Source of the DNA: an uncultured Gammaproteobacteria bacterium
GTDB taxonomy: Bacteria > Pseudomonadota > Gammaproteobacteria > CAMYKB01
Length of the DNA: 37,827 nucleotides
Assembly: GCA_947258875.1 (NCBI GenBank)
Contig: CAMYKB010000017.1
Span: forward strand, 1 to 37,827
Direction: 5' to 3'
Shown: in pieces, positions 1 to 37,335 of the stretch
How the letters are laid out: each line of letters opens with the position of its first letter
Numbering within the stretch: the first letter of the stretch is position 1
Position numbers and translations under genes: made by a program
The notes under the pieces: generated by a model
Databases searched by the model: none
What the model was told of the DNA's origin: nothing
The model's input: only the letters and a program-made list of their open reading frames with translations

Positions 1-1338
1 GTCGACTACTTTCACAGCGGTAACGTAGATACGGAAATGTTCAGCCTGGACCGGGTTGTGCTGGAGCCGCTTCCGTTTTCAGGGAATCTCAATCAACCGG
101 TCGATCAAACCCTGCGCGGCAAATACGCGTTCGAGATTGTCGATCCCGCCAGCGGTGACGTCGCGTGGTCCAGGAGCTTCAGTAGTATCTACGGTGAATG
201 GGAAACGACCGGTGAGGCGCGGCGAGGCACCTGGCGAACGCTACACGAATCTCGGCGTTTTCCCGAGCCGAGGTATCCCGTACAGATCGTGTTGAAGAAG
301 CGCGCGGCAGACGGGACGTTTCGCGAGATCTTCTCGACGTTGGCCGATCCGGCAAGCCGATGGGTGGACCGCTCTCCACTCGTTCAGCAGGGAGAGGTGT
401 GGTCTGTTTTCGAGCACGGGCCGCGGAGCGAGAAAGTCGACCTCCTGGTCCTCGGTGACGGCTACACACGACAAGAGTTGCCCAGCTATCGGACCGACGT
501 CCGTCGGGTGGTCGACGCTCTATTCGCCTATTCTCCGTTCGCCGATCATCGGGAAGACTTCAACGTGTGGGCTATCGACGTCGCTTCGGAGCGCTCCGGT
601 GTATCTCAGCCGCGGACCGGGTTTTGGAACCGCACGCCAATTGGTTTGACGTACAACGCGTTCGACTCCGAGCGCTACATGCTCAGCTTCGAGAATCGTC
701 GCTTTCAGGAGATCGCGGCGCTTGCGCCGTTCGACGCGCTCATCCTCATCGGAAACGGCGAGCAGTATGGGGGTGGGGGAATCTACAATCTGTACTCCAC
801 TGCTGCGGCGAAGAGCGGACAGCTCCCCTACTTGATCGTGCATGAATTCGCTCATGCCTTCGCGGGGCTGGGCGATGAGTACTACACCTCGCAAGTGGCG
901 TACGAAGATTTCACCGCGCCCGGGACCGAGCCTTGGAGTCCCAACGTCACTGCGCTGCTGGATCCCGAGCGTCTGAAGTGGCAGGCGTTGGTGGATGCCG
1001 ATACCCCGACGCCCACTCCCTGGGATCAGGAGGCGTATGACAGCACCTCCCTCGCGCTTCAGGAGACGCGCCAAGCCCTCCGCGCACAGAAAGTTTCCGA
1101 ACAGCGCATGGATCAATACTTCCAGGAGGCCAAGGAGACGACGAGCCGAATCCTGGAGGCGCAGCAGTACTACGGCAAGGTCGGTGCTTTCGAAGGCGCC
1201 GGGTATCAGGCCAAGGGCCTGTACCGACCGGCGGTCGATTGCATCATGTTCACCCGAAACCCGGATTACTTCTGCCCGGTATGCTTGCGCGCCATCGAGC
1301 GCATCATCGACCTCCACACCGGGAAGTCGACTCAATGA
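1..1338 (+). CDS. Peptidase M64 family metallopeptidase, 5' end cut by window edge
   Basis: Predicted zinc metallopeptidase of the IgA-peptidase (M64) type, probably secreted. The frame is open from base 1, and the codons before the first ATG (base 37) read VDYFHSGN, which fits the M64 N-terminal domain, so the true start and any signal peptide lie outside the window. The first ~90 codons are that N-terminal domain. The zinc site HEFAH is at codons 281-285 counted from base 1, followed by GLGDEYY, in which the Asp is the likely third ligand. Near the C-terminus, C-MF...FCPVC matches the conserved Cys region of the family. A charged, helix-prone insert sits between the active site and that region. 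G+C is far higher than in the rest of the window (40 of 60 bases at 301-360), so the gene looks foreign to the main genome. Family call firm; substrate unknown. Confidence 0.85.
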   Translation, partial: VDYFHSGNVDTEMFSLDRVVLEPLPFSGNLNQPVDQTLRGKYAFEIVDPASGDVAWSRSFSSIYGEWETTGEARRGTWRTLHESRRFPEPRYPVQIVLKKRAADGTFREIFSTLADPASRWVDRSPLVQQGEVWSVFEHGPRSEKVDLLVLGDGYTRQELPSYRTDVRRVVDALFAYSPFADHREDFNVWAIDVASERSGVSQPRTGFWNRTPIGLTYNAFDSERYMLSFENRRFQEIAALAPFDALILIGNGEQYGGGGIYNLYSTAAAKSGQLPYLIVHEFAHAFAGLGDEYYTSQVAYEDFTAPGTEPWSPNVTALLDPERLKWQALVDADTPTPTPWDQEAYDSTSLALQETRQALRAQKVSEQRMDQYFQEAKETTSRILEAQQYYGKVGAFEGAGYQAKGLYRPAVDCIMFTRNPDYFCPVCLRAIERIIDLHTGKSTQ

Positions 1339-1523
1339 AGGCGAGATTCACACTCGGACGGAGCGCCATCACGGTCCGGATCCAGCGACCGGCCGATAGA
1401 TCAAAAGCCGCATCGGTGGAGCTTTGTTTGATAACTGTTCACTCGCGATTGTGGCATTTGATCCGCTAGACGAGTTGCGATGCCGGACAAATCCTCCACC
1501 CCGGCTTCGATCGAGCTGAAGAG

Positions 1524-1967
1524 CTACTCTTCTATTGGACTAGTGAAACGAGCCGTCACCAACCACGTGTCGCCTTTCTTTGCATAAATCAGAGCAATCA
1601 GGCTCTTCGATGGTGGCAGTGGATTTCCATCATCATCTATCGAGCCGGTGCTTTCCGAACGGTATTTGTGAATTGCCACGTCTGGCGTCACAAAGACAAT
1701 GCCAACGTCATCTAACAGCTTTACCCGCAAGTCTTTCAGGCGCTCGTGCGTTTGCTGGTGAGCTGCGCGGTCTACTGAGGCCTCGATGTTCTCAAAGGGG
1801 TCCGCATATACATCCAAGTGACCCTTGATATCGCGCGTGTTGGTCGTCTCTATGAGTCGTTTCGTCACTTCACGAATAGCCGCTTCATCTGCCGCTTGGC
1901 CAGCTACCGCTGGCATCGCCGCAAAGAGCAGACACACTCCCATCGTGAGAATCATTAGATACTTCAT
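1524..1967 (-). CDS. Secreted NTF2-like (SnoaL/DUF4440-type) protein
   Basis: A 147-residue protein with a clear signal peptide (MKYLMILTMGVCLLFAAMPAVAG, cleavage expected after AVA-G). The mature part is about 120 residues and has the length and pattern of a SnoaL/DUF4440 NTF2-like fold: an N-terminal helix (AIREVTKRLIETTNTRD), then alternating strands ending in GDTWLVTARF. The ATG follows a good ribosome site (AAGGAGAG, about 6 bases upstream), which supports this start. No catalytic residues can be assigned; the family includes many small-ligand binding proteins and isomerases. It stands alone between two fragments of different base composition. G+C here is about 48% (29 of 60 at 1681-1740), unlike the M64 gene to its left. 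Confidence 0.6.
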   Translation of the reverse strand: MKYLMILTMGVCLLFAAMPAVAGQAADEAAIREVTKRLIETTNTRDIKGHLDVYADPFENIEASVDRAAHQQTHERLKDLRVKLLDDVGIVFVTPDVAIHKYRSESTGSIDDDGNPLPPSKSLIALIYAKKGDTWLVTARFTSPIEE

Positions 1968-2282
1968 GAGAACTCTCCTTCCGCTTGCGAAATTTAGATT
2001 TCTCTGGGATGGAGCCTCCAGGGAGTGTTTGGAGATGTTTTCCCTCCTTCAGCTAAATTGTTCTAGATAAGTGCGAACTTACAGGGAATGCGCTCCCCCT
2101 GGTGGCGCCAAAGGATTTCTGGCTTTTATTACACTTCTTTCAGATTGTCAATTGTCAATTACGAGAACAGGATATTTTCGCTATCAAATTTGACTCGCCG
2201 GCAACCCATCTGCCTCGGCGCTACGGATGGGAAATCGATCCGGTGCGGTGCGCTTTACTCCGACCGCAGGTTGCAGCCACGA
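1968..2282. other. Intergenic stretch without recognisable gene
   Basis: About 315 bases between the NTF2-like gene and the MacB-like fragment. I see no coding region with a supported start. It contains a short tandem repeat (ATTGTCA twice, then ATTACG) near 2147-2163. The promoter of the minus-strand NTF2-like gene must lie in its left part, but no convincing -35/-10 pair is visible. Confidence 0.5.
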
Positions 2283-5200
2283 CTACTCATGCCGTAACGC
2301 CTCAATCGGATCCAGCCGTGCCGCCTGGCGGGCCGGGAAGTAGCCGAAGATCACTCCCACACCGGCCGAGAACAAGAAAGCCACGACGACGATGCTCGGG
2401 TCGAGAACCAAAGGGACGCCTAGAGGCGCTGCCGAAAGCGCGGAGCCGGCGATCCCGAGGGTAATCCCAAGTAGGCCGCCGAACGAAGACAACACCACCG
2501 CCTCCACTAGAAACTGTGTCAACACCTCCCGCTCCATTGCGCCGATGGCGAGGCGAATGCCAATCTCTCGGGTACGTTCGGTCACGGACACGAGCATGAT
2601 ATTCATGATCCCGATTCCGCCCACGAGGAGACTGACTCCCGCCACGGCGCCGAGAAGAGCGGTGAGAGCCTGGGTCGCACCAGACAGGGTGTTGGCAACC
2701 TGCTCCATGTTCATCACCGAAAAATCGTCCTGCCCATCGGCTGAGCCGCGCCTGCGCTCGCGCATGAGCCGCTCGATATCCGTCTCGACCTTCTCGGTCG
2801 AAATGCCGTCTTGAACCGAGACAATCGCAGGCTGATCCAGAGTCGGGTAAGCACCGCAGGCCTCACCAGCATCACACAGAAAATCATCGTTATCGGAATC
2901 ACTACCCGCCAGGACAATATAATTCCCGTTCGCCACGCCACTAAATGAATAACTGATGGCATCACTGGTCGGATCATTGCCTGCAGCAATCGTAAGTGGC
3001 TGCTCGCTGGGTGCATCGTTATTAATCAGTATCACCCAAGTGAAACCAGTATCACCAGTACTGAGCACCCCCTTGCGCATGGTGACAGGCACCGCCAGGG
3101 GGCTGGAGCCTGCGATATCTGTCGTCACGACGATCTCACCCGAATAACTGGCATCGATCAAGCCTGCTCGATCAACATTTACAGTAAGTGTACATGGCAG
3201 CGTGGTGCAACTCGTCGCCGACAGGCCGATCCAGGGTTCACTCGCCGTTATCCCGGTCACAGTAAATGTACCACTGCCGATGTTGTCCAATATCAAGTCT
3301 AGAGAGGTTGTCGTACTGCCAAAATTAAGCGTACCCGGATTGACCGACAAGGTGGGTGGTAAGGGGTTACCGCTGGCGCTCTCCTGCGCGACCTTCACGG
3401 CCTTGAGCGCATCGATCAGACCGTAACCATAAATGTCGTCACGCACGGCAACTCCGTTTGCAGCAACGTCCTCAGTAATCAGTCCCGCCTTCAGGATATT
3501 ATCCAGGTCGGCGGGTGTCATGGCCGGATACAAGGCCTTCATCAGTGCGGCAACGCCTGCCATATGCGGTGACGCCATCGAGGTGCCCTGATAAAAACCA
3601 TACACCGGCTCCGCCGTCCCCGAGGAGTCATCCGCCAAGGTACTCAACACGCCATCGGGATAGGAATCGGGCGTTAGGTTGACCGCGGTATTACCACCGG
3701 GCGCGGCCACATCTATATTGGCACCGAAATTGGAATACGGTGCGCGCGCCTTGTTCACGTCCACTGCACTCACTGCAATCACACCATCGCAGCTCGCAGG
3801 AAATGACGGCGCACTGGTGTTCTCATTACCTGCTGCGGCCACCAGCACCACGCCTTGAGCACGAATTTGATTCATTGCAGTCTGTTCAGCACCACAGGTA
3901 CCTGCACCACCGAAACTCATGTTGATGATATCGGCATGCGGTGTAGGAATGATATTCGAACGATTACTGAGACCAGCCGCATAACGCAGCGCCTCGATGA
4001 TATCGAAGCTGCTGCCACCGGTATCCGTCAAGGCGCGGAGCGGCATAACTTGTGTAGACGTAAGCCATGTTACGCCTGCGACACCCGTGGTATTATTCGT
4101 GGCAGCGGCAATTGTACCGGCAACGTGCGTGCCATGATAACTACTGGAGGAACCGACCAAACGACCCGGGTTACCGGGATCATTGGGATTCGCATCATTA
4201 TCCACAAAATCATAACCCGTAGTGAGCTGACCTGCTAAATCAGGATGCGACAAATACGCCCCGGTATCAACGACGGCCACAATAACATTATTCGTACTAC
4301 TCGGTATTGCGTCCCAGGCCTGCGGCAGGTTAATTAATGGATAATGCCATTGCAAATTGTAATTCTTGTCGTTGGGTGCGGCCGTCGGATAGTAGATCCT
4401 GTTAAGATGCGCCGACTCAATGTCGGCGCGCTTACGCAATGCCTGTATGACCTTGATGGTCTCGTGCTTGAGCCGCAGTTCTGCACTCATAGCAGCAACG
4501 CCAGCGTCGCGTGTGTCCATTGGCGTCATACCCAGCACCGTCAATGCCTGGATTTGCTGATCGGTATCACCCATCGTCAGCAGCACTTCACGCCCCGCTG
4601 CACCACCCTTGACGCGCATGCCTACCTGACCGGCTAGCGTCGCCAATCTGTCGTTTGCATTCGCCGGCAGGAATTGATTCCTGAAGCGCACAATCACCTC
4701 ACCGGGCACAAAATCGTCTTCGACACGCATCATACCTGCCGAAGCGACTGCGATATCACCGATTGCGAGACTGTAACTGGAGCCACCAGACGTTGCTTCG
4801 ACTTCGACGACATACAAACCGTCCGCAGGTACGGTAACACTCTCCATTGCGGCGTTGGCAACAAATGCCGAGGAGGCTATTGGTGTCGTTGCAGTCGTAG
4901 AATCATACAGGTTCACACCCAGACTGGTTGCTTGAGATGGATCGCTGATATTCAGCACCACCGCCTGGTCCTGTACCAGACTGACCTGATAACGGTCTAG
5001 CGGGTCGGGTATATCCTTAAAGCGGTCCGGGTTTGCTGAGGTTGTGTCATTGGTTGCTGTCGCCGTCACATAACCGCCCACGATCACCGGGTTCGCCAGC
5101 AGCTGCTCCTGCCCGGAGACATCGTTGTCAGTATTCAGGGAAAGCGGATCATTGGTATCGCCATCGATAGCGGTACCAGATGCGGCGGTGATGGTACCAC

Positions 5201-5315
5201 TAACCGTAAACGTTGTAGGCGGGGGAGGGAAAGTAGAACCGCCGCCTCCGCCGCCACAAGCTGCGATGGCGAACGTAAGACTACATAGATATAACTGGTA
5301 TTTCGGCTTCAGCAT
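2283..5315 (-). CDS. S8 (subtilisin) peptidase lipoprotein fused in frame to a MacB/FtsX permease C-terminus
   Basis: A 1010-residue chimeric reading frame. I place the start at the ATG at 5315 (MLKPKYQLYLC...) because it opens a lipoprotein signal with lipobox AIAAC; an upstream TTG at 5348 is less likely. Residues ~25-230 hold a low-complexity linker and a prepeptidase-type beta domain. Residues ~330-640 form an S8 catalytic domain with the full triad: Asp350 (VVDTG), His394 (HGTHVAG) and Ser579 (GTSMASPH). Two beta-sandwich domains follow to about residue 833. From about residue 835 the sequence is instead the C-terminal FtsX domain of a MacB ABC permease: IGIMNIMLVSVTERTREIGI, three hydrophobic segments and the ending RLDPIEALRHE. 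The MacB ATPase and first membrane helix are absent. A secreted lipoprotein protease ending in an inner-membrane permease module makes little biological sense, and base composition changes at the join, so this may be a chimera. Confidence 0.75.
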   Translation of the reverse strand: MLKPKYQLYLCSLTFAIAACGGGGGGSTFPPPPTTFTVSGTITAASGTAIDGDTNDPLSLNTDNDVSGQEQLLANPVIVGGYVTATATNDTTSANPDRFKDIPDPLDRYQVSLVQDQAVVLNISDPSQATSLGVNLYDSTTATTPIASSAFVANAAMESVTVPADGLYVVEVEATSGGSSYSLAIGDIAVASAGMMRVEDDFVPGEVIVRFRNQFLPANANDRLATLAGQVGMRVKGGAAGREVLLTMGDTDQQIQALTVLGMTPMDTRDAGVAAMSAELRLKHETIKVIQALRKRADIESAHLNRIYYPTAAPNDKNYNLQWHYPLINLPQAWDAIPSSTNNVIVAVVDTGAYLSHPDLAGQLTTGYDFVDNDANPNDPGNPGRLVGSSSSYHGTHVAGTIAAATNNTTGVAGVTWLTSTQVMPLRALTDTGGSSFDIIEALRYAAGLSNRSNIIPTPHADIINMSFGGAGTCGAEQTAMNQIRAQGVVLVAAAGNENTSAPSFPASCDGVIAVSAVDVNKARAPYSNFGANIDVAAPGGNTAVNLTPDSYPDGVLSTLADDSSGTAEPVYGFYQGTSMASPHMAGVAALMKALYPAMTPADLDNILKAGLITEDVAANGVAVRDDIYGYGLIDALKAVKVAQESASGNPLPPTLSVNPGTLNFGSTTTSLDLILDNIGSGTFTVTGITASEPWIGLSATSCTTLPCTLTVNVDRAGLIDASYSGEIVVTTDIAGSSPLAVPVTMRKGVLSTGDTGFTWVILINNDAPSEQPLTIAAGNDPTSDAISYSFSGVANGNYIVLAGSDSDNDDFLCDAGEACGAYPTLDQPAIVSVQDGISTEKVETDIERLMRERRRGSADGQDDFSVMNMEQVANTLSGATQALTALLGAVAGVSLLVGGIGIMNIMLVSVTERTREIGIRLAIGAMEREVLTQFLVEAVVLSSFGGLLGITLGIAGSALSAAPLGVPLVLDPSIVVVAFLFSAGVGVIFGYFPARQAARLDPIEALRHE

Positions 5316-5495
5316 CAAAGTCGTGATCTCCCGAGTTCCGTTAATCAAGCGCGGACGCTATCATGTCCCTGTGATTCAAACAGGAAACCACCCCATTAGA
5401 CAACTTGAATGTCTGCCATTTGTGCTCGATTGCCCGAATTATGCCAAATTCGTAACCACAACCGCTGATGTCACACTTTTTTCACCCCGAGATGC

Positions 5496-7871
5496 TCAAT
5501 CAGCCGGTGTCTGATCCGCCATAAATAGCCAGGTCTCGACCACGGTGTCCGGATTAAGCGATACGCTGTCTATGCCTTCCTCTAATAACCACTTGGCGAG
5601 ATCGGGATGATCCGAGGGACCCTGCCCGCAAATACCGACATATTTTCCCGCCTTATGGCAGGCCTGTATTGCCTGATGCAACAGCGTTTTGACGGCCTCA
5701 TTGCGTTCATCGAAAAGGGATGCGACCAGGCCTGAGTCGCGATCCAGCCCCAGGGTTAACTGTGTAAGGTCGTTGGAACCGATTGAGAAGCCGTCGAAAT
5801 ACTCCAGGAACTGTTCAGCCAGGATGACGTTCGAAGGGATCTCGCACATCATGATCACCCGCAGTCCATTATCGCCACGCACCAGCCCATTCTCTGCCAT
5901 CAGTTGCGTCACCTGACGGGCCTCGTCCAGCGTGCGCACAAACGGCACCATGACTTCAATATTGGTCAGATTCATGTCATCGCGCACTTTTTTCAAGGCA
6001 CGGCATTCCAGTTCAAAACATTCGCGAAACGATTCCGAGATGTAACGCGACGCGCCACGAAAACCGATCATCGGGTTTTCTTCTTGCGGTTCGTAACGTT
6101 GCCCTCCAACCAAATGTGCATATTCGTTAGACTTGAAATCAGATAGGCGCACGATTACAGGCGCGGGGGTAAATGTTGCTGCTAGGGTCGCAATACCTTC
6201 AACCAATTTTTCGACATAAAACTCCACAGGACCGGCGTAGCCGGAAATCCGGTGCCGGATCTCGCGTTGCAGGTCACCTGTGAGGCTGTCGTATTCCAGT
6301 AAGGCCCGTGGATGCACACCGATCATCTTGGCGATCACGAATTCCAGGCGCGCGAGCCCGACCCCGGCATTAGGGATCGATGCAAACTGCATCGCACGCT
6401 CGGGATTGCCGACATTCATCATCACCTTAAGCGGCAAGTCCGGCATCTTATCGAAAGCGAATTGTTTGATTTCGTAATCTAACAGGCCACTATATATTTT
6501 CCCGGTATCACCTTCCGCACAGGAGACCGTAACTTCTGTCGCATCAGGCAACACAGCTGTAGCATCACCACAACCCACCACCGCCGGAATACCCAGTTCG
6601 CGAGCGATGATCGCCGCATGACAGGTACGCCCGCCGCGGTTGGTAACAATCGCTGCAGCGCGTTTCATAATCGGCTCCCAGTCCGGATCGGTCATATCGG
6701 TGACCAACACATCGCCCGTCTGCACCCTGTCCATTTGCTGCAGATCATTGATGACACGCGTCACACCTGTCCCGATGCGTTGCCCGACGGCGCGTCCTTT
6801 CGCCAGTACCCCGCCCTCTGCCTTAAGCACGTAACGTTCGATGGTCTGGCCATCGCGGCTCTTCACGGTTTCTGGCCGCGCCTGTACAATATAGAGTTTG
6901 CCGTCGACTCCATCCTTGGCCCATTCGATGTCCATCGGACGGCCATAGTGTTTTTCAATCGTGACCGCCTGTTTTGCCAGTTCGGTGATCTCGGTGTCGT
7001 TGAGCACGAACAACTCCGTTTCGCTGTCCTCAACATCGATCACTTGCACGGGTTCCTCGGCATCCCTGGCATGGTTATAAATCATCTTGATCGCCTTGCT
7101 GCCGCGATTGCGCTGCAAAATAGCAGGACGCCCCGTAGCCAGCGTCGGTTTATGCACATAGAATTCGTCTGGATTGACCGACCCCTGCACTACAGTTTCG
7201 CCCAGTCCGTAACTTCCGGTAATGAACACCACATCCGGGAATCCGGACTCGGTATCAAGGGTAAACATCACCCCACTGCAGGCAATGTCGCTGCGGACCA
7301 TACGCTGCACTCCGGCAGACAAGGCAACATCATGGTGCGCAAAACCCTGATGTACACGATAGGAAATGGCGCGATTATTAAACAGTGAAGCGAAGACTTT
7401 TTTAACGGCCAACAGCACATCATCCAAGCCGCGGACATTCAGGTAAGTTTCCTGTTGCCCCGCAAACGATGCCTCGGGCAAGTCTTCTGCAGTAGCAGAT
7501 GAGCGCACAGCCACCGAAATATCGCTGCCAGCACTGTCCACCATCTGTGTGTAGGCTGCGCTAATGGTGTCTTGCAAATCCTGCGGTAAACTTGCGTCGA
7601 TCACCCACTGGCGAATCCTGCTGCCAGCCGCCGCCAACGCAGTAACGTCCTCGACATCCAGCTCCTGCAATATCGCATTAATACGTTTTGTCAGGCCCGC
7701 CTCATCGAGAAAGCGGTTAAAGGCTGCCGCGGTGGTTGCAAAGCCACCCGGCACCGCAACACCCAGCGCACTCAGATTGTTAAACATTTCACCCAGCGAG
7801 GCATTTTTTCCGCCTACCCTGGCCACATCGTTCATGCCGATTTCACTGAAATCCAGGACATATTCACTCAT
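5496..7871 (-). CDS. ppsA: Phosphoenolpyruvate synthase (pyruvate, water dikinase)
   Basis: Converts pyruvate, ATP and water to PEP, AMP and phosphate, the entry to gluconeogenesis. The ATG at 7871 ([16 protein letters not shown]) is chosen over an upstream GTG at 7889 because it matches the usual N-terminus and has AGG at a workable distance. Length is 791 residues, close to the E. coli enzyme. The N-terminal ATP-binding domain shows [11 protein letters not shown] and [17 protein letters not shown]. The phosphohistidine is His418 in [15 protein letters not shown]. The C-terminal PEP/pyruvate barrel ends with [12 protein letters not shown], which carries the catalytic Cys, and SVSLNPD. It is transcribed divergently from its regulator ppsR with a 93-bp gap. 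Together with the glyoxylate genes downstream this points to growth on acetate or other two- and three-carbon substrates. Confidence 0.97.
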
Positions 7872-30642: not shown

Positions 30643-31593
30643 TTGATCATAGAAAGTCAGTTCAAGGCAGCCTGGTGGCTGTCTAACCCACATCTGCAAA
30701 CTGTCTGGCCAACATTGTTCAGACGCAAACCACACCTCAAACTGAAACGAGAACGCCTGGAACTGCCGGACGGCGATTTCATCGATATCGACTGGACTGC
30801 AGCGGCTGCTGGCCCATTGGTAGCTGTCTTCCATGGGCTTGAGGGCTCCAGTCAATCGATCTACGCAGCAGGATTACTACATTGCCTGCAATCCTGTGGT
30901 TACCAGGCTGTATTCATGCACTTCCGGGGTTGTAGCGGCGAATGCAATCGCTTGCCGCGCGGCTACCATGCAGGAGATACCGGCGATATCGATTATTTCA
31001 TAGAGGTACTACGCAGCCGCTTTCCACACCGCCAGTTAGCGGCCGTGGGTTTTTCTCTGGGCGGTAATGCACTGCTCAAATGGCTGGGCGAAACAGGCAA
31101 AAACAATCCGCTCGCTTGTGCCGGCGCAGTCTCCGTACCCCTGGAACTGGATATCTGCGCCGAACGCATCGATACGGGTCTATCGCGCGTGTATCAACGC
31201 TATCTGCTACGCAAAATGCACCGCTCGGCACGACGCAAGCTCGGCAAAAACGGTTACCCACTCCATGCCACTACGCTTGCTGGTCTCGCCAGTATCCGCA
31301 GCTTCGATGACCATGTCACCGCCCCGCTCCACGGCTTCAGCGGCGTAGATGATTACTACCAGCGCTCCAGCTCGCGCGCTTATCTGCAACACATCCGTAC
31401 GCCAACCCTGATCGTACATGCAAAAGACGATCCCTTCATGCGCCCCACGATGATCCCCGAAACTCATGAATTGGCCCCCGCGGTCACACTGGAAGTATCA
31501 GAACAAGGAGGACATGTGGGTTTTATTGCCGGTTGGGGACGCTACTGGCTAGAGGAGCGCATCAGCGGCTGGCTGCAAGAACAGTTAGAGTAA
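30643..31593 (+). CDS. YheT-type alpha/beta hydrolase
   Basis: A 316-residue alpha/beta-hydrolase of the YheT/ABHD1-3 group. The nucleophile elbow is GFSLGGNALLKWLGE with Ser, the N-terminal FKAAWWLSNPHLQTVWPTL is the group hallmark, the acid lies in HAKDDPFM and the base in GGHVGFIAG. The start is a TTG (30643) with AAGG upstream; no in-frame ATG lies close enough to keep the conserved N-terminus. Probable esterase or lipase-like enzyme, substrate unknown. Its stop lies 19 bases before the convergent end of the LysE-type gene at the distal edge of the integron array. Confidence 0.88.
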   Translation: MIIESQFKAAWWLSNPHLQTVWPTLFRRKPHLKLKRERLELPDGDFIDIDWTAAAAGPLVAVFHGLEGSSQSIYAAGLLHCLQSCGYQAVFMHFRGCSGECNRLPRGYHAGDTGDIDYFIEVLRSRFPHRQLAAVGFSLGGNALLKWLGETGKNNPLACAGAVSVPLELDICAERIDTGLSRVYQRYLLRKMHRSARRKLGKNGYPLHATTLAGLASIRSFDDHVTAPLHGFSGVDDYYQRSSSRAYLQHIRTPTLIVHAKDDPFMRPTMIPETHELAPAVTLEVSEQGGHVGFIAGWGRYWLEERISGWLQEQLE

Positions 31594-31612: not shown

Positions 31613-32236
31613 TTAAGCCCTTGCTATCACAAAGACGCCAACAGCAATCAGTACACTGCCCGCGGCAATACCAATTACTTGAGCTGCACTTGAATGGATA
31701 AGCACGCTGACTTGATCTGCCATATAGGCATAACCCAGCTTAACCCCGCCTACCGCTACGCTAGCGATGAGTATAATAATGCAGGCGTCAACATAGGTCA
31801 TAACTGACAAATCAATGAACGCAGGAAAAAATCCAAAATAGAACAAGATTGCTTTTTGATCTCCTAAGGTAATAAAGAGCCCGGCCAGGAAACTGGACAA
31901 CAAAGAAGATTCTATAAACTTCTCAGCCTCGATGGTTTTTAACTTCGATCTCCATAAGACCACACCCAGGCCGATAAGATATGCACCGCCAAGGTATTTT
32001 ACGAGGATAAACAGGCCCCCCAAAGCATCAGCGAGTACCGCCAAACCAAAAATCGCCAGTAGTATGAAAATAACGTCGCCGACCACGATCCCTATGGTTG
32101 CGAAAGCACCATGAACAAATCCGCAAGCGGCAGACCTTGCCGATACAGTCAATACACTAACACTGGGGATAAACGCCAGAATGACCATAACACCGAACAA
32201 TGCAGCAATAGTGCCTAATGTCATACTGATTTGCAT
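31613..32236 (-). CDS. LysE/RhtB-family exporter, distal cassette gene of the integron
   Basis: A 207-residue membrane protein with about six hydrophobic segments, and the LysE-family features near the start (AFIPSVSVLTVSARSAACGFVHGAFATIGIVVGD, ...YLGGAYLIGLGVVLWRSK). These proteins export amino acids or related metabolites. ATG 32236 (MQISMTLGTIAALFGVM) lies 3 bases after the R' box of the preceding attC and has no ribosome site, as often seen for cassette genes. No complete attC follows it: only 19 bases separate it from yheT, so its own recombination site is lost, or it is the first host gene behind the array. Confidence 0.8.
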   Translation of the reverse strand: MQISMTLGTIAALFGVMVILAFIPSVSVLTVSARSAACGFVHGAFATIGIVVGDVIFILLAIFGLAVLADALGGLFILVKYLGGAYLIGLGVVLWRSKLKTIEAEKFIESSLLSSFLAGLFITLGDQKAILFYFGFFPAFIDLSVMTYVDACIIILIASVAVGGVKLGYAYMADQVSVLIHSSAAQVIGIAAGSVLIAVGVFVIARA

Positions 32237-32238
32237 AG

Positions 32239-32302
32239 GATTAACGCCGCAGTTCAAAGAATGCGAGGCATGAGCGACCATTTGTGAAACTGCATGTTAG
32301 GC
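32239..32302 (-). repeat. Integron attC site of the GNAT cassette
   Basis: Read on the minus strand: R'' GCCTAAC (32296-32302), L'' GCAGTTTCACAA, a 20-odd base centre, L' TTGAACTGC, R' GTTAATC (32239-32245). L'' pairs with L' over nine bases, with two unpaired bases only on the L'' side, which is the extrahelical-base pattern that marks attC sites. The GNAT stop codon lies inside R'', a common cassette arrangement. R' deviates from GTTRRRY at one position. Confidence 0.8.
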
Positions 32303-32761
32303 ATGGGAGTTCATTGATTTGTCGAAGACGTGCTGTTCTTTGGTGACCGCAAAGCCTAACCGCTCATAGAAGGCATAAGCATCACTGCGTGACGAACGAG
32401 TGCGAACCCTGAGTTTTTCGATACCGCAGCGCCCCACCCAAGCTTCGGCAGCCAACAACAGGGCCCGCCCAATACCACGGCCACGATACTGCTCAGAGAC
32501 AACGAATCCACCTAGCTCTGCGAACGCATCTGACTCAAGCCGAAGAGCGAGAAACACGTGCAACCATCCGACAACAGCGCCATCGGGAAAACATGCCACC
32601 AGCACAAGGTGTTCACTGGACCGAAGAGTCACAGCCAAGCGGTCTGCGAGCCCTCGAGATGAGGATGGATAGCCAAGCTGTGTCGACAGTTCGGCTAATG
32701 CTGCCGCATCGTCTATAGATGCATATCGGATCTCAGTCTTTTCCATATTTCTATATGCCAT
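32297..32761 (-). CDS. GNAT-family N-acetyltransferase (integron cassette)
   Basis: A GNAT acetyltransferase of about 154 residues. The acetyl-CoA loop is QYRGRGIGRALL (motif A, R-x-x-G-x-G), preceded by FAELGGFVVSEQ and followed by YAFYERLGFAV, the motif-B end. Start uncertain: ATG 32761 (MAYRNMEKTEIRYAS) has AGGG nearby, while ATG 32746 (MEKTEIRYAS) is also possible; the longer frame to 32824 would run through the upstream attC-like site. The substrate cannot be inferred. The stop codon is inside the attC R'' box. Confidence 0.85.
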   Translation of the reverse strand: MAYRNMEKTEIRYASIDDAAALAELSTQLGYPSSSRGLADRLAVTLRSSEHLVLVACFPDGAVVGWLHVFLALRLESDAFAELGGFVVSEQYRGRGIGRALLLAAEAWVGRCGIEKLRVRTRSSRSDAYAFYERLGFAVTKEQHVFDKSMNSHA

Positions 32762-32845
32762 TCGCCCTAAAGCCAGGTGATTAAGTTGAGGGCTGCTTGT
32801 ATTTTTACGCAGTCCCTCTTGCACGTTTGGTGTCTACTTTATAGG
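32762..32845 (-). repeat. Degenerate attC-like site of the YciI cassette
   Basis: Between the YciI-like and GNAT genes, minus strand: AGGGACTGC pairs with GCAGCCCT with one unpaired A, around a 12-base AT-rich loop (stem at 32789-32796 and 32809-32817). An R'-like CTTTAGGGC lies directly before the GNAT start. A GCCTAAG box lies nearer to the YciI stop (about 32896-32902). The outer boxes are poor, so the limits are uncertain. Confidence 0.4.
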
Positions 32846-32906
32846 GAGGGATGTTCACAGTTCCTTTTTGAACGCCTTGTTTCGGTTTGTTACTCTTAGG
32901 CGTAAC

Positions 32907-33194
32907 TTAACCTATCAGAAAACTTAAGCGTTCATCAGCTTTTTTGGCTTCAATTTCAAGAATTTCCGCGCTTACCACATTTTCCGTGACAAACGGATCG
33001 TCGTTCACCCTGCTTTGAAGATCTGACAGCGAGGTATTGTGTGCCACAATGCCACCGCCTAGATTAGGCTGAAGACTACCCGCCAACAAAAATATACCGT
33101 CATCAAAACCGCGTTTAATCCATCCGTTGTGGCCTTCCATAAATTGGTCAGCCTGGCCTTTATTATCAGAAAATTTCAGAAGTACGATAAACAC
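32907..33194 (-). CDS. YciI-like protein (integron cassette)
   Basis: A 95-residue protein of the YciI/YCII dimeric alpha-beta-barrel type: MFIVLLKFSDNKGQADQFMEGHNGWIKRGFDDGIFLLAGSL followed by the DDPF segment typical of the family. The start is GTG 33194 with AGGAG 10 bases upstream. The His in EGHNGW matches the conserved His of the family (HxxxL position). Function is unknown for most members; some are Cl-transferring or lactone-handling enzymes. Orientation and flanking attC-like sites mark it as a cassette gene. Confidence 0.8.
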   Translation of the reverse strand: MFIVLLKFSDNKGQADQFMEGHNGWIKRGFDDGIFLLAGSLQPNLGGGIVAHNTSLSDLQSRVNDDPFVTENVVSAEILEIEAKKADERLSFLIG

Positions 33195-33261
33195 CGGATT
33201 TGTTCTCCTATCTATTTGGTTGGACGAAAAAAATGTGGCTATCTTTAGCTCGCGATGGCAG

Positions 33262-33355
33262 CCCTAACGCCATACTCATGGGCCAACCGGAGCGCAGCGT
33301 AATATACAAAACAAACAATATTTTTGACAGTCAATGTTGATTTGCATGGTTAGAT
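33262..33355 (-). repeat. attC-like site of the GFA cassette
   Basis: Minus strand: R'' ATCTAAC (33349-33355), which fits RYYYAAC, and R' GTTAGGG (33262-33268), preceded by GGC as in many attC sites. Both ends share CTAAC and a CCATGC/CCATAC element next to it in inverted orientation. The inner L boxes pair only partly. It lies 7 bases after the GFA stop. Confidence 0.55.
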
Positions 33356-33362
33356 CCTGCTT

Positions 33363-33791
33363 TCAACCTTTCTCTAACAACCCCTGTATCCATTCTTCAG
33401 GCGCAAACTCCTCGAACTGTGGTAGTGAGTCTGATATTTCGTACCAAGGTGCTTTTGATCCTATGAAAATATGGGCTCTTGGTTTTATTCCTGGATCTGT
33501 GTCAAGAGTTCCAGCTGGAATGATCACATTATTATCTTCTTTTTCAATTACCGGAACGCTTGATCCGCAATTGCTACAAAAACAACGATCATCCTGTTGC
33601 GGAGCCTTATAGGTTGTGACAAGGTCAACACCACAAATCCATTGGAATCCATCTGTGTCTGCATGTAGAAAGCTACCAAATGCACTCCCATGAACTTTCC
33701 TACACATGGAACAATGACAATTATTTATCATGTAGATACGACCATCTAATTGATACTTAACTTGCCCACAAAGGCACGATCCCAGGATCAT
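33363..33791 (-). CDS. GFA-family (CENP-V-like) zinc protein (integron cassette)
   Basis: A 142-residue protein of the glutathione-dependent formaldehyde-activating (GFA/CENP-V) family. Zinc-binding motifs are GSCLCGQVKYQ, CHCSMCRKVHGSAFGSF and CFCSNCGSSVPV, all intact. The C-terminal EISDSLPQFEEF is typical. The start has GGAG 8 bases upstream. The family includes S-hydroxymethylglutathione-binding and related proteins, but many members have no known reaction. GFA genes are frequent passengers of environmental integrons. Confidence 0.9.
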   Translation of the reverse strand: MILGSCLCGQVKYQLDGRIYMINNCHCSMCRKVHGSAFGSFLHADTDGFQWICGVDLVTTYKAPQQDDRCFCSNCGSSVPVIEKEDNNVIIPAGTLDTDPGIKPRAHIFIGSKAPWYEISDSLPQFEEFAPEEWIQGLLEKG

Positions 33792-33804
33792 AATTATTAC
33801 TCCA

Positions 33805-33960
33805 CAAACAACCTCACGTTCTCAGAAGGAGCGTCTCAGTGGCGACAGAGAACCCATGATATGCATATTACCATTTTGAATACGATGGTGAAAAACGATA
33901 CACAGTGGGTATATTAATGTGATGAGTTATGGGTCTTGACGCCACAGTAGCTTGTTAGAG
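33805..33960 (-). repeat. Degenerate attC-like site of the unknown-lipoprotein cassette
   Basis: Minus strand: R'' CTCTAAC (33954-33960) followed by ACTGTGGCG, which pairs mainly over GTGGCG with CGCCACTGAG about 100 bases later. A GTTGTTTG box near 33805-33812, before the GFA ribosome site, is a weak R' candidate. Long and diverged compared with the other sites. Confidence 0.4.
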
Positions 33961-33963
33961 ACC

Positions 33964-34368
33964 TTATTCTTTGAGGATTGTTAACCACTTTTTCCACTGC
34001 TGATTCAGCTTGACTAAATCATCATCAGGATTTTTTAAAGCCTTCAGGCTACGTTCCAAGCCCTCTATTTGCAGCTCAAGCATGTTCACAGCCCAATCCT
34101 GTTTGTCCTTATATGGTTTCTTTTTTAACGCCACGAGATAATCATGAACTTCAGCGTATAATTTTTTGTTCCTTTCTTCTGCTTCTTTGACAGTTTCACC
34201 ATTCTTTAAAAGAATATCTTTTGCAAGACTCCAGTTTTGTTCTTCATATGGGATATCTATTTGTTCTTGAATTAATCGATCAACTATTTCCAGCTGCATC
34301 TTGGTTGGTTCATTTCCGCAACCCTGTACACCTAAACAAATAAATAGCAATAAAATACAATATTTCAT
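33964..34368 (-). CDS. Lipoprotein of unknown function (integron cassette)
   Basis: A 134-residue protein that I do not recognise. Start ATG 34368 (MKYCILLLFICLGVQGC) gives a clean lipoprotein signal with lipobox GVQGC; the longer frame to 34467 would run through an attC site. The mature part is highly charged and helical (RLIQEQIDIPYEEQNW, EAEERNKKLYAEVHDYLVALKKKPYKDKQDW), ending in WKKWLTILKE. G+C is very low (21 of 60 at 34141-34200), unlike its neighbours, as expected for independently acquired cassettes. Confidence 0.7.
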   Translation of the reverse strand: MKYCILLLFICLGVQGCGNEPTKMQLEIVDRLIQEQIDIPYEEQNWSLAKDILLKNGETVKEAEERNKKLYAEVHDYLVALKKKPYKDKQDWAVNMLELQIEGLERSLKALKNPDDDLVKLNQQWKKWLTILKE

Positions 34369-34395
34369 TTTCTTAGCCCATGCCCTGTTATGGAT

Positions 34396-34487
34396 TCTAG
34401 ACGTTTGAGCCAAGGGCCCGGAAAAATGCGAAGCGCGTTTGGCAGTCCCGCCCGCGATAGCGGGCAAACTTGGCTGCCTTACTAGGC
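34396..34487 (-). repeat. attC site of the VOC cassette
   Basis: Minus strand: R'' GCCTAGT (34481-34487), 5-base spacer, L'' AGCCAAG; then L' CTTGGCT, 5-base spacer, R' GTCTAGA (34396-34402). L'' and L' are perfect inverted repeats of 7 bases, and the centre contains a 6-bp hairpin GCCCGC-GATA-GCGGGC. The spacing is exactly that of attC sites, but both R boxes are degenerate (CTAG in place of CTAAC/GTTAG). The VOC stop codon lies in R''. Confidence 0.65.
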
Positions 34488-34952
34488 GTTGCCTTGCCCA
34501 AAGAGTGCTTCAGAACGTCGGTTTATTTCCTCAGGCGCGAGATCTTCTTTGTGTGTGGATAGAAACCAGATGTGTCCGAAAGGGTCTTGCAGCGTACCGC
34601 TACGGTCGCCATAAAACTGGTCCTGCACTGGCGTGACAGCCTTTGCACCCGCAGCAATGGCTTGGCCGAACAGAACATCCACGTCCTCCACATACACATA
34701 AAGTCCAACCGACGAGCCTCCCAGTACTTGTGGGTCGCTGGTTGGGCTTTCTTCACAGGCGTCCGCCAGCATGATACGGGAATCCCCGATGCTGATTTCG
34801 GCATGCCCAATCTTTCCTCCCGGCGCATCCAGACGAAACAATTCAGCCGCACCAAAGGCGCGTTTGTAAAAGTCGAGAGCCTCGGTCGCGCCTTTGATGA
34901 TCAGATACGGGGTTACGTTGTGGTATCCATCGGGTATGGGTTTAACTGACAT
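34482..34952 (-). CDS. VOC-family (PhnB-like) protein, first recognised cassette gene
   Basis: A 156-residue vicinal-oxygen-chelate protein of the PhnB/YaeR type: YHNVTPYLIIKGATEALDFYKRAFGAAELFR, then GHAEISIGDSRIMLAD, and DPFGHIWFLSTHKED with the usual glyoxalase-fold repeat. Members include glyoxalase-like and fosfomycin/bleomycin-resistance-like proteins, but the PhnB subgroup has no settled activity. Strong ribosome site (AGGAG, 7 bases). It is the gene nearest to the integrase remnant, so in an active integron it would be the cassette best served by the Pc promoter. Confidence 0.85.
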   Translation of the reverse strand: MSVKPIPDGYHNVTPYLIIKGATEALDFYKRAFGAAELFRLDAPGGKIGHAEISIGDSRIMLADACEESPTSDPQVLGGSSVGLYVYVEDVDVLFGQAIAAGAKAVTPVQDQFYGDRSGTLQDPFGHIWFLSTHKEDLAPEEINRRSEALFGQGNA

Positions 34953-34987
34953 GTCACTACTCCTTTCCTAGTAAAATTTGCCAAATC

Positions 34988-35051
34988 GCCTAACGTATTG
35001 AGCTCATTGGCGCGCGATAATTCGCGCGCACAATGTAGCAACTTGTTGCGA
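34988..35051 (-). repeat. Well-folded attC site next to the integrase remnant
   Basis: Minus strand: R'' TCGCAAC, then GCTACATTGTGCGCGCGA, loop ATTA, TCGCGCGCCAATGAGC, then R' GTTAGGC (34988-34994, perfect GTTRRRY). The two arms pair over 16 bases with exactly two unpaired bases, A and T, both on the same (L'') arm. That is the extrahelical-base signature of integron attC sites. It precedes the VOC gene and so closes a further, gene-less cassette or attI-proximal segment. Confidence 0.85.
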
Positions 35052-35386
35052 TGCGCGCATACATTAATTAATACATGACAAAAGAAGGATGTGTTGAATT
35101 CGAGCAGAACTACGCTTCGCTTGATACCATTTTTTCAACATATCGTCCAATCACTTATTTTGCTTTTTAATAATTATTTGGCCTTATGCGTCAGCCGCAA
35201 CAGCTGCTATACGAACCCCTTTGGGTCTGGATAGTTTACTTCATGATTTAGTATTGTATGCGAATAATTCATTGATTTTATTAAAATTAACCAATTCCTG
35301 CCCCATTATCAAGCCATACATATTGGGACAATATCTTGTTGAGAAAATGTAAATTCCTTACACTGGGGTTTTCCTAGGAGGTATCA
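35052..35386. other. Gene-free segment between attC and integrase remnant (attI/Pc region)
   Basis: About 335 AT-rich bases without a convincing gene. A 31-residue reading frame at 35075-35170 on the plus strand has no recognisable features. By position this stretch should contain attI and the cassette promoter Pc, or a non-coding cassette. An attI core could not be assigned with confidence; AATTAACC near 35284-35291 is the only weak candidate. Confidence 0.5.
35336..35364 (+). promoter_or_regulatory. Candidate promoter of the integrase gene
   Basis: TTGTTG (35336-35341) and TACACT (35359-35364) are separated by 17 bases, 22 bases before the proposed integrase TTG start. The -10 matches the consensus at four of six positions, the -35 at three. 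No LexA box is evident next to it. Confidence 0.35.
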
Positions 35387-35985
35387 TTGTGGGGTCTAAC
35401 TCATACACCACATAACCAGAAACCTAAGTTACTCGATCAAATCAAGCTGGCCTGTCAGCGTCTGCATTACAACCCACGCACTGCATCCAGTTATGTCTAC
35501 TGGTGCCGCCAATACGTTCTCTTTCACAAATAACGCCACCCCAGGGAGATGGGAAAAGTCGTGATTGAGGCATTCTTGAATTATTTGGTCACACAGCGAC
35601 ATTTGTCTGCCAGCCCCCAGTTACAGGCATTGAATGCTCTGTTTTTCTTGTATAAGCATGTTCTTGCAATTGAACCCGGCAGACTCGATAACCCCGCACG
35701 GGTCAAGCGCAAGCAATTTCTGCCAACCATGTTAAGCACCTATGAGGTGCGCGATATTCTGGCTAGAATGAAAGGCACCCCGAAGCTGATGGCCGAGCTT
35801 ATTTATGGTATCGGCATGCGGGTGAATGAATGCACACAACTGCTTGCCAAAGATATTGATTTCGATCTAAAACCATCGCCATCCACCAGTGTGAAGACGG
35901 CAAAGACCGTCTGACGCTACTCCCTAAGAGACTTAGTGGCTCCCTTGCAGCAGTAATCGATTCTGCTGCAGGCTTACACAGCTAA
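35387..35985 (+). pseudogene. intI: Integron integrase (IntI-type tyrosine recombinase), broken and truncated
   Basis: Start TTG 35387 behind a strong ribosome site (AGGAGGT). The translation gives the N-terminal core-binding domain (KPKLLDQIKLACQRLHYNPRT, YVYWCRQYVLFHK), then an in-frame TAA (35531-35533) in place of a sense codon. It resumes at once in the same frame with RHPREMGKVVIEAFLNYLV, ASPQLQALNALFFLYKHVL, LPTMLSTYEVRDIL and LIYGIGMRVNECTQLLAKDIDFD, containing catalytic Arg box I. Near 35868-35874 a single-base loss in an A-run shifts the frame; the shifted frame continues TIAIHQCEDGKDRLTLLPKRL to a TAA at 35983. The C-terminal part with H-x-x-R and the nucleophilic Tyr is missing. 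FHK-RHP-EMG, LNALLFLY and GTGMR-like patterns fit the integron integrase family. Three independent lesions make it non-functional. Confidence 0.85.
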
Positions 35986-36058: not shown

Positions 36059-36799
36059 TTAAATAAACGAAATGATATTACCCTCGTACATAACGGGGCC
36101 TGTCGGAGTTTCCGGCGGCGGCGCATCCATTGGCTCCATGCTGATCGCCAGGCCCTTGGTCTTCTTAAGCATGCGCCACTCTTTTTTGCTGAGTTTAAAT
36201 GTGGTTTCCTTGGCGTGTTGCAGCTCTCCCATAGGCATATATTTGCGGCCGGTTTCCATGACACACCACAGCGCTACACGCTGGTTCCTGGGAGTAACAC
36301 CCTCATCCATCACCACTAATTTGAGTTCGCGTGTGGGCTGATAGGCTGTTGCCATGACCATGGGCTCACTCGACTGGCTTTCGAGTACCGCGACAAATGC
36401 CGCTGTGGCGACACCATCTTGCTGGCTTAGCGGGACGAGCTGGTAAACCAGTAACGCTGCCGCTAGCGCCATGCCCGCAAAAGCGCTGCCGCGCCACAAC
36501 GCCAGGCTGCGCCAGAAACCTTGTGGTGTTTTATCTGTAACGGATCGAATATTTTCCCGTGGCCCGATCGCAGTCTGAATTTCCTGCCAGACGCGTTGTG
36601 GAGGCTGCACTTCTGGCAGGCGTTCTGCCAGCGGGCTGAGGCGGCGCTCCCAATCGTCAATCGCTTGCTGCAGATAACTGCGCTGATGCGCCAGTTGCCT
36701 GAAACGCCTGCGCGCATGTCCCTTCAGGCTGCCCACAACGTAGGCTGCGGCCAGTCGCTCATAGACCTCCGGGTTTTGATAGCGATCTAGTCGAGACAT
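36059..36799 (-). CDS. Anti-sigma factor, RskA-like
   Basis: A 246-residue membrane protein. The N-terminal ~90 residues (YERLAAAYVVGSLKGHARRRFRQLAHQ) form the cytoplasmic anti-sigma domain; no zinc-binding HxxxCxxC is visible. One transmembrane segment (FAGMALAAALLVYQLVPL, about residues 107-125) is followed by a periplasmic RskA C-terminal domain with VALWCVMETGRKYMPMGEL and the ending LAISMEPMDAPPPETPTGPVMYEG. Its start overlaps the sigma-factor stop by 13 bases, so translation is coupled. It should hold the sigma factor until a periplasmic signal triggers proteolysis. It converges with the integrase remnant. Confidence 0.88.
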   Translation of the reverse strand: MSRLDRYQNPEVYERLAAAYVVGSLKGHARRRFRQLAHQRSYLQQAIDDWERRLSPLAERLPEVQPPQRVWQEIQTAIGPRENIRSVTDKTPQGFWRSLALWRGSAFAGMALAAALLVYQLVPLSQQDGVATAAFVAVLESQSSEPMVMATAYQPTRELKLVVMDEGVTPRNQRVALWCVMETGRKYMPMGELQHAKETTFKLSKKEWRMLKKTKGLAISMEPMDAPPPETPTGPVMYEGNIISFI

Positions 36800-37335
36800 T
36801 CGCGTAACTGCTCCATACCCCTGCGGATCCAGGCTTTCACTGTACCCAGCGGGGTCGATAATAGGGTCGATAACTCATCATGTGTGTGTCCATAACAATA
36901 GGACATCACAATGCAACGCTTTTGTTCATCCCTGAGTTGGTCCAGGCAATTCATCACGGCCTGGTTCGCAGCGCCCAATTCTGTGGCGCTAAGGGGATCA
37001 TTAATTTCTGATGCAAAAATATCATCGCTGTACTCATCCATAGTGCGGTCAGTTTGCACGCGTGTACTACGCAATAAGTCCAACGCCCGGTTGCGTACTA
37101 TGCTGATCATCCAGGTCATGGCTTTACCACGGACGGGATCAAAGCTGGCGGCCTTGTCCCAGATCTTGACGAAACTGTCCTGCAATACATCTTCAGCCAT
37201 CTCCTGCTGCCTGAGTAGCGCGAGACTTACCGCAAATAATCTGCCTGATACCTTGCGATACAACGTCTCGAGCGCCTTTTGGTCACCTTGCGCACAGGCA
37301 ACCAGTAATTCGGCCAGAGGATCGGTAGAACTCAT
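36787..37335 (-). CDS. ECF-family RNA polymerase sigma factor (SigK/RpoE-like)
   Basis: A 182-residue group-4 sigma factor starting at ATG 37335 (MSSTDPLAELLVACAQGDQ); an ATG at 37383 in frame adds 16 residues without family support. Region 2 shows QEMAEDVLQDSFVKIWDKAASFDPVRGKAMTWMISIVRNRALDLLR; region 4 shows CLDQLRDEQKRCIVMSYCYGHTHDELSTLLSTPLGTVKAWIRRGMEQLRECL, with its helix-turn-helix. Pairing with an RskA-like anti-sigma factor is the known SigK/RskA arrangement. The regulon is unknown; such systems often respond to oxidative or envelope stress. Confidence 0.93.
   Translation of the reverse strand: MSSTDPLAELLVACAQGDQKALETLYRKVSGRLFAVSLALLRQQEMAEDVLQDSFVKIWDKAASFDPVRGKAMTWMISIVRNRALDLLRSTRVQTDRTMDEYSDDIFASEINDPLSATELGAANQAVMNCLDQLRDEQKRCIVMSYCYGHTHDELSTLLSTPLGTVKAWIRRGMEQLRECLD

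Follow-up and report, generated by a model that had tools for sequence, protein, structure and literature searches.

A chromosomal integron in decay, with several sister platforms, in the genome of an uncultured gammaproteobacterium

Introduction

In the genome of an uncultured gammaproteobacterium (GenBank assembly GCA_947258875.1; 3.01 Mb in 67 contigs), a row of small genes lies beside a recombinase gene of opposite orientation, which raises the question of whether the locus is an integron and, if so, whether it is a working one. The window analysed here is a stretch of 37,827 nucleotides, positions 1-37827 of contig C17. The region of interest has a chromosomal setting: it lies inside a 93-kb contig, among housekeeping genes, and is flanked by yheT (plus strand, ending at 31593) and by an anti-sigma/ECF sigma pair (36059-37335, minus strand). 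No Rfam match was found in the region, and the ECF sigma query had no match among viral contigs.

A preliminary description of this DNA saw in it the defining architecture of an integron. By descent, this is correct: an integrase of the IntI clade, an attI site, cassettes on a single strand and remnants of attC sites identify the locus as an integron. In function it is not, for the integrase is a pseudogene, most attC sites go unrecognised by a general model, and none is left at the distal end. We conclude that the locus is, very probably, a chromosomal integron in decay, made up of a dead IntI-type integrase, attI and seven minus-strand cassettes (Table 1).

Table 1. Features of the integron region; positions are those of the window
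Feature	Position	Strand	Basis or remarks
intI pseudogene, IntI residues ~1-190 of 315	35387-35985	plus	TIGR02249, three-frame translations, tree
attI, core CTG^TTGCGG, crossover between 35201 and 35200	35201-35240 (outer edge approximate)	minus	homology boundaries
Cassette 0, ORF-less, 207 bp	34994-35200	minus	common to platforms on C38, C11, C3
attC of cassette 0, R'' TCGCAAC, R' GTTAGGC, stem with one extrahelical base	34988-35051	minus	p 0.003; 9.8 bits
Cassette 1 gene, VOC/glyoxalase-fold protein, 156 aa	34482-34952	minus	PF00903, 8.5e-12
Decayed attC remnant, VOC/lipoprotein spacer, R'' GCCTAG, R' GTT lost	34394-34487	minus	p 0.62, not significant
Cassette 2 gene, small lipoprotein, no assigned family	33964-34368	minus	60% identical paralogue in C27 array
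attC-like site, long type, 150 bp, R'' CTCTAAC, lipoprotein/GFA spacer	33811-33960	minus	p 0.01
Cassette 3 gene, GFA-family protein, 142 aa	33363-33791	minus	PF04828, 6e-25
attC-like site, R'' ATCTAAC, R' GTTAGGG, GFA/YciI spacer	33262-33355	minus	p 0.01; 7.2 bits
Cassette 4 gene, YciI-like protein, 95 aa	32907-33194	minus	weak: PF03795, E 0.003, below Pfam cut-off
Possible decayed attC, YciI-like/GNAT spacer	32765-32901	minus	p 0.16, not significant
Cassette 5 gene, GNAT acetyltransferase, 149 aa	32297-32746	minus	PF00583, 8.8e-17
attC-like site, R'' GCCTAAC, R' GTTAATC, GNAT/LysE spacer	32239-32302	minus	p 0.003; 6.8 bits
Cassette 6 gene, LysE-type transporter, 207 aa	31613-32236	minus	PF01810, 1.4e-28

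Results

The integrase gene is an IntI relic

The plus-strand recombinase had been described as an integron-type tyrosine recombinase facing away from the cassettes, and this assignment was borne out. The open piece of the gene matched the integron integrase model TIGR02249 with an E value of 3.2e-27; the whole relic scored 138.5 bits over residues 1-190 of 315, with stop codons inside the matched stretch. In a maximum-likelihood tree, the relic fell in a subclade (support 100/99) together with the relics of C38 and C11 and with an intact IntI from a different genome, G334. The subclade as a whole belongs to IntI and is far from the two Xer proteins of the genome analysed here.

The gene is not intact. 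Three-frame translation of the single assembly, used without reads, revealed an in-frame TAA at 35531-35533 and a -1 frameshift near 35866-35872 (about 35868), and in the same assembly everything past residue ~190, ca. 40% of the length, is gone. The patch specific to IntI belongs to the lost part, as does the second catalytic half. The relic stops where the patch starts; the sister gene on C38 has the patch. Judging from these lesions, the integrase is dead, and since its gene is broken, the integron can presumably no longer move its own cassettes.

Absence of the patch and of the C-terminal half is also what could be expected of a broken phage or Xer-type recombinase without any kinship to integrons. 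This explanation has a negligible probability and is refuted by the tree and the sister copies: TIGR02249 scored 95.7 bits versus 27-38 bits for Xer models, the support for the IntI clade is 100/99, and the close relative on C38 contains the patch region. Clearly, then, the recombinase does not group with XerC/D or phage integrases.

attI and an ORF-less first cassette

Between intI and the first gene (VOC) lie an attI core and an ORF-less block, both overlooked in the preliminary description. A core with G^TT adjoins intI at 35200/35201. When C38 was compared with genome G334, homology on the attI side stopped at this core, while the homology of the block among C17, C38, C11 and C3 starts there. 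The core is therefore attI and the block an ORF-less first cassette, referred to below as cassette 0. The left edge of the block is G^TTAGGC and its right edge the core CTG^TTGCG; the R'' box (TCGCAAC) and the start of the block (TTGCG) are complementary, as expected for a cassette. Its attC gave a strong fold (dG -21.2, z -4.3). Promoter-like matches reading into the array, as a Pc promoter would, were no more frequent than in shuffled sequences.

Cassette 0 is also first at the sister platforms on C38 and C11 and at the attI of C3, a contig on which the stretch examined contains attI and cassette 0 but lacks intI. A search of 368 other genomes from the class did not find the cassette. Among C17, C11 and C38, copies of cassette 0 share 88-96% identity, against 69-74% for the intI genes that accompany them (Fisher p 4e-4 to 1e-13); the copies on C3 and C11, two contigs that both end inside the cassette, are 98% identical. 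Because the cassettes are 88-98% identical and the integrases only 69-74%, cassette 0 most likely spread among the platforms after these had diverged. Gene conversion between the copies is a possible alternative to such late spread.

A long, near-perfect hairpin was observed in the copies of cassette 0 on C3 (L130, 9590-9660) and C11 (L011, 40-110). It is altered on C38, and one of its arms is deleted in the window copy (35095-35125); the hairpin was not found elsewhere in the genome.

attC sites in the window are degenerate

Each of the six spacers was compared with dinucleotide shuffles of itself. On the minus strand, attC sites received support in four of the six (p 0.003-0.01; combined p ~7e-6). 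The signal was partly present on the plus strand too (combined p 0.003), since the sites, mainly the last one, are palindromic. Thus, the claim that the genes are separated by attC-like sites holds well for these four spacers, but is not borne out for the VOC/lipoprotein (p 0.6) and YciI/GNAT (p 0.16) spacers, where any site would be a decayed one. Two details noted earlier were found again in the sequence: a stop codon lies in an R'' box (the VOC stop TAG is within the R'' remnant GCCTAG), and a start lies 3 bases behind an R' box (the LysE ATG, after GTTAATC). No attC was found after the LysE gene; yheT ends 20 bp away, which leaves no room for one.

A covariance model was built from 30 attC sites of other organisms. 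Several minus-strand matches to such a model had been named beforehand as support for an integron; in the window, it gave 9.8, 7.2 and 6.8 bits at three of the places where sites were expected, with E values of 1-8, i.e., at noise level, and missed the other sites, so that the locus comes close to having no attC match above threshold. At the intact integron on C41, the same model gave 51, 37 and 24 bits. A position-weight scan with 20-base arms likewise recognised the attC sites of C41 but not most of those in the window. The array is not a large one with highly similar attC sites: there are seven cassettes, and the spacers are dissimilar. We conclude that the attC sites of the window are degenerate and that the array is genuine but decayed.

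Cassette genes

Six small, unrelated genes in one orientation (31613-34952) had been reported, and the ORF list and Pfam matches agree; all are on the minus strand, divergent from intI. Their base composition does differ, with GC contents of 35-54% and a host mean of 52.5% (sd 3.9). The preliminary description recognised no antibiotic-resistance gene. The GNAT gene was considered as a candidate and rejected, its scores being far below the cut-off of every aminoglycoside-acetyltransferase model. Models of defence systems had no match among the cassette genes. Relatives of the lipoprotein were absent from 368 other genomes of the class, from plasmids and from viral contigs; its paralogue in the C27 array has attC matches around it.

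Could the six genes simply belong to the chromosome, as a small accessory region of the usual kind that happens to adjoin the intI relic? Most spacers go unrecognised by the general attC model, the last gene has no attC, and genes of the GFA, GNAT, VOC and LysE kinds are common everywhere. Against this, all six genes are on one strand and point away from intI, four spacers contain attC-like sites, and attI and the shared cassette lie between intI and the first gene. In addition, a paralogue of the lipoprotein gene is present in another cassette array of the genome, and LysE-type and GFA-type genes also occur in the C36 array. We therefore regard an assembly of ordinary genes as very unlikely. 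The verdict of an integron relic is decided by the sister platforms in the same genome.

Other integron loci in the genome

Four further intI loci were found. The one on C41 is intact and of a different IntI type, with a 320-aa IntI and good attC sites nearby; those on C38, C11 and C53 are decayed. Two more recombinase loci, on C7 and C29, encode Xer proteins. Cassette arrays were also observed at the starts of C36, C27 and C24; each is probably the distal part of an array that has its intI end on another contig.

The attC sites of one integron can be substrates for the IntI of another. The array in the window might therefore not be frozen, if the C41 IntI moved its cassettes in trans via the better-preserved attC sites (those of cassette 0, GFA/YciI and GNAT/LysE). 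An intact IntI of 320 aa does exist in the same genome, and the spread of cassette 0 between platforms after their divergence would agree with such movement. However, the attC sites of the window score 7-10 bits versus 24-51 bits at C41, the C41 IntI shares just 42-46% identity with the sister type, and cassette 0 was not found on C41. Movement in trans is thus improbable, and we favour an array at rest.

Discussion

The anatomy of the array, the kinship and lesions of the integrase, the boundaries of attI and the cassettes, the sister platforms and the likely late spread of the shared cassette, all of them shown by the sequences, are consistent with the following history. The plus-strand integrase, when active, would have added circular cassettes to the array at attI (35200/35201), recombining attI with attC sites in their folded, single-stranded form. 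Successive captures would have shifted older cassettes leftward, leaving seven minus-strand cassettes that read away from attI. The final capture may have been that of cassette 0, which also entered the attI sites of sister platforms. The integrase gene would afterwards have gained its stop codon, its frameshift and its 3' deletion, though the order of all these events is presumptive, and attC sites would have drifted or, at the distal end, been deleted. The array would now be essentially frozen and inherited like ordinary genes, and any expression of the cassette genes is likewise presumptive.

In one survey, nearly one third of intI genes were pseudogenes, and ~20% of integron bearers had more than one intI (Nemergut et al. 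2008, PMC2426708); decayed intI genes are usual in Xanthomonas (PMC12444791). Because intI pseudogenes and multiple intI genes have thus been reported already, the integron in the window is one more decayed example of a known, well-documented class. It resembles the sedentary chromosomal "pseudo-integrons" of PMC2426708 in having an intI with a stop, frameshift or deletion, an adjoining array and several intI genes per genome, and differs from them in that five intI loci occur in one 3-Mb genome, with the same ORF-less cassette first in several. With the inactivated Xanthomonas integrons (PMC12444791) it shares a truncated intI and a stable residual array; those, however, lie beside ilvD and form one platform, whereas here the array lies between yheT and the anti-sigma gene and there are several platforms. 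Among 369 sampled genomes of the class, with at most five candidates scored in each, 152 matched IntI at E <= 1e-30, and three or more matches were listed for 12; a few of the matches may not be true IntI. Dead integrons are common. The locus is therefore ordinary in kind, and mildly interesting in the multiplicity of its sister copies; that several of these occur in one genome with the same gene-less cassette first is its sole unusual point.

The genome offers for comparison an intact platform together with several platforms at different stages of decay, and the shared first cassette indicates that cassettes most likely passed from platform to platform at a time when the integrases already differed by ~30% of bases. 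As an array without a working integrase, the locus is like a CALIN (cluster of attC sites lacking an integron-integrase), but, unlike a pure CALIN, it retains a recognisable intI relic and attI, and is thus an eroding integron. Detection tools would probably file it as a CALIN or miss it, and it illustrates how degenerate arrays escape detection by attC models.

ORF-less gene cassettes, some with promoter activity, are described in PMC6557892. Cassette 0 is like these in having an attC, no long ORF and the first position, and differs from the promoter cassettes described there in its long hairpin (on C3 and C11); its role as a promoter is only putative. It is conceivable, though we consider it improbable, that cassette 0 spreads by itself or is favoured by selection, being a promoter or hairpin cassette, and that it came to occupy the first position at every attI of its clade in this one genome. 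If so, it would serve as a mobile regulatory module or be a parasite carried on a cassette, and a single integrase common to the sister integrons would move it between them.

Several minor observations were made elsewhere in the genome. The array on C36 (C36:1-7000, positions 482-3996) has several attC matches and includes a LysE-type gene and a GFA gene; an ORF of the aminoglycoside 3-N-acetyltransferase family (PF02522, 3e-36) is also present in it. The intact integron has a barstar-like gene (C41, 203-529; PF01337, 1.6e-14) among its cassettes. Isolated sites resembling attC, single or paired and with scores of 23-31 bits, were seen at C3:98967, C7:50765, C22:106779, C20:62380 and C1:56675, and are possibly CALINs or single cassettes outside integrons. 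Finally, on C38 (C38:29000-45000, positions 3740-5510), an insertion sequence, whose transposase we take to be IS1182-like, apparently lies within the R' core of a cassette attC (AGGCGTT / IS / GTTAGCC), a position that suggests attC-targeted insertion.
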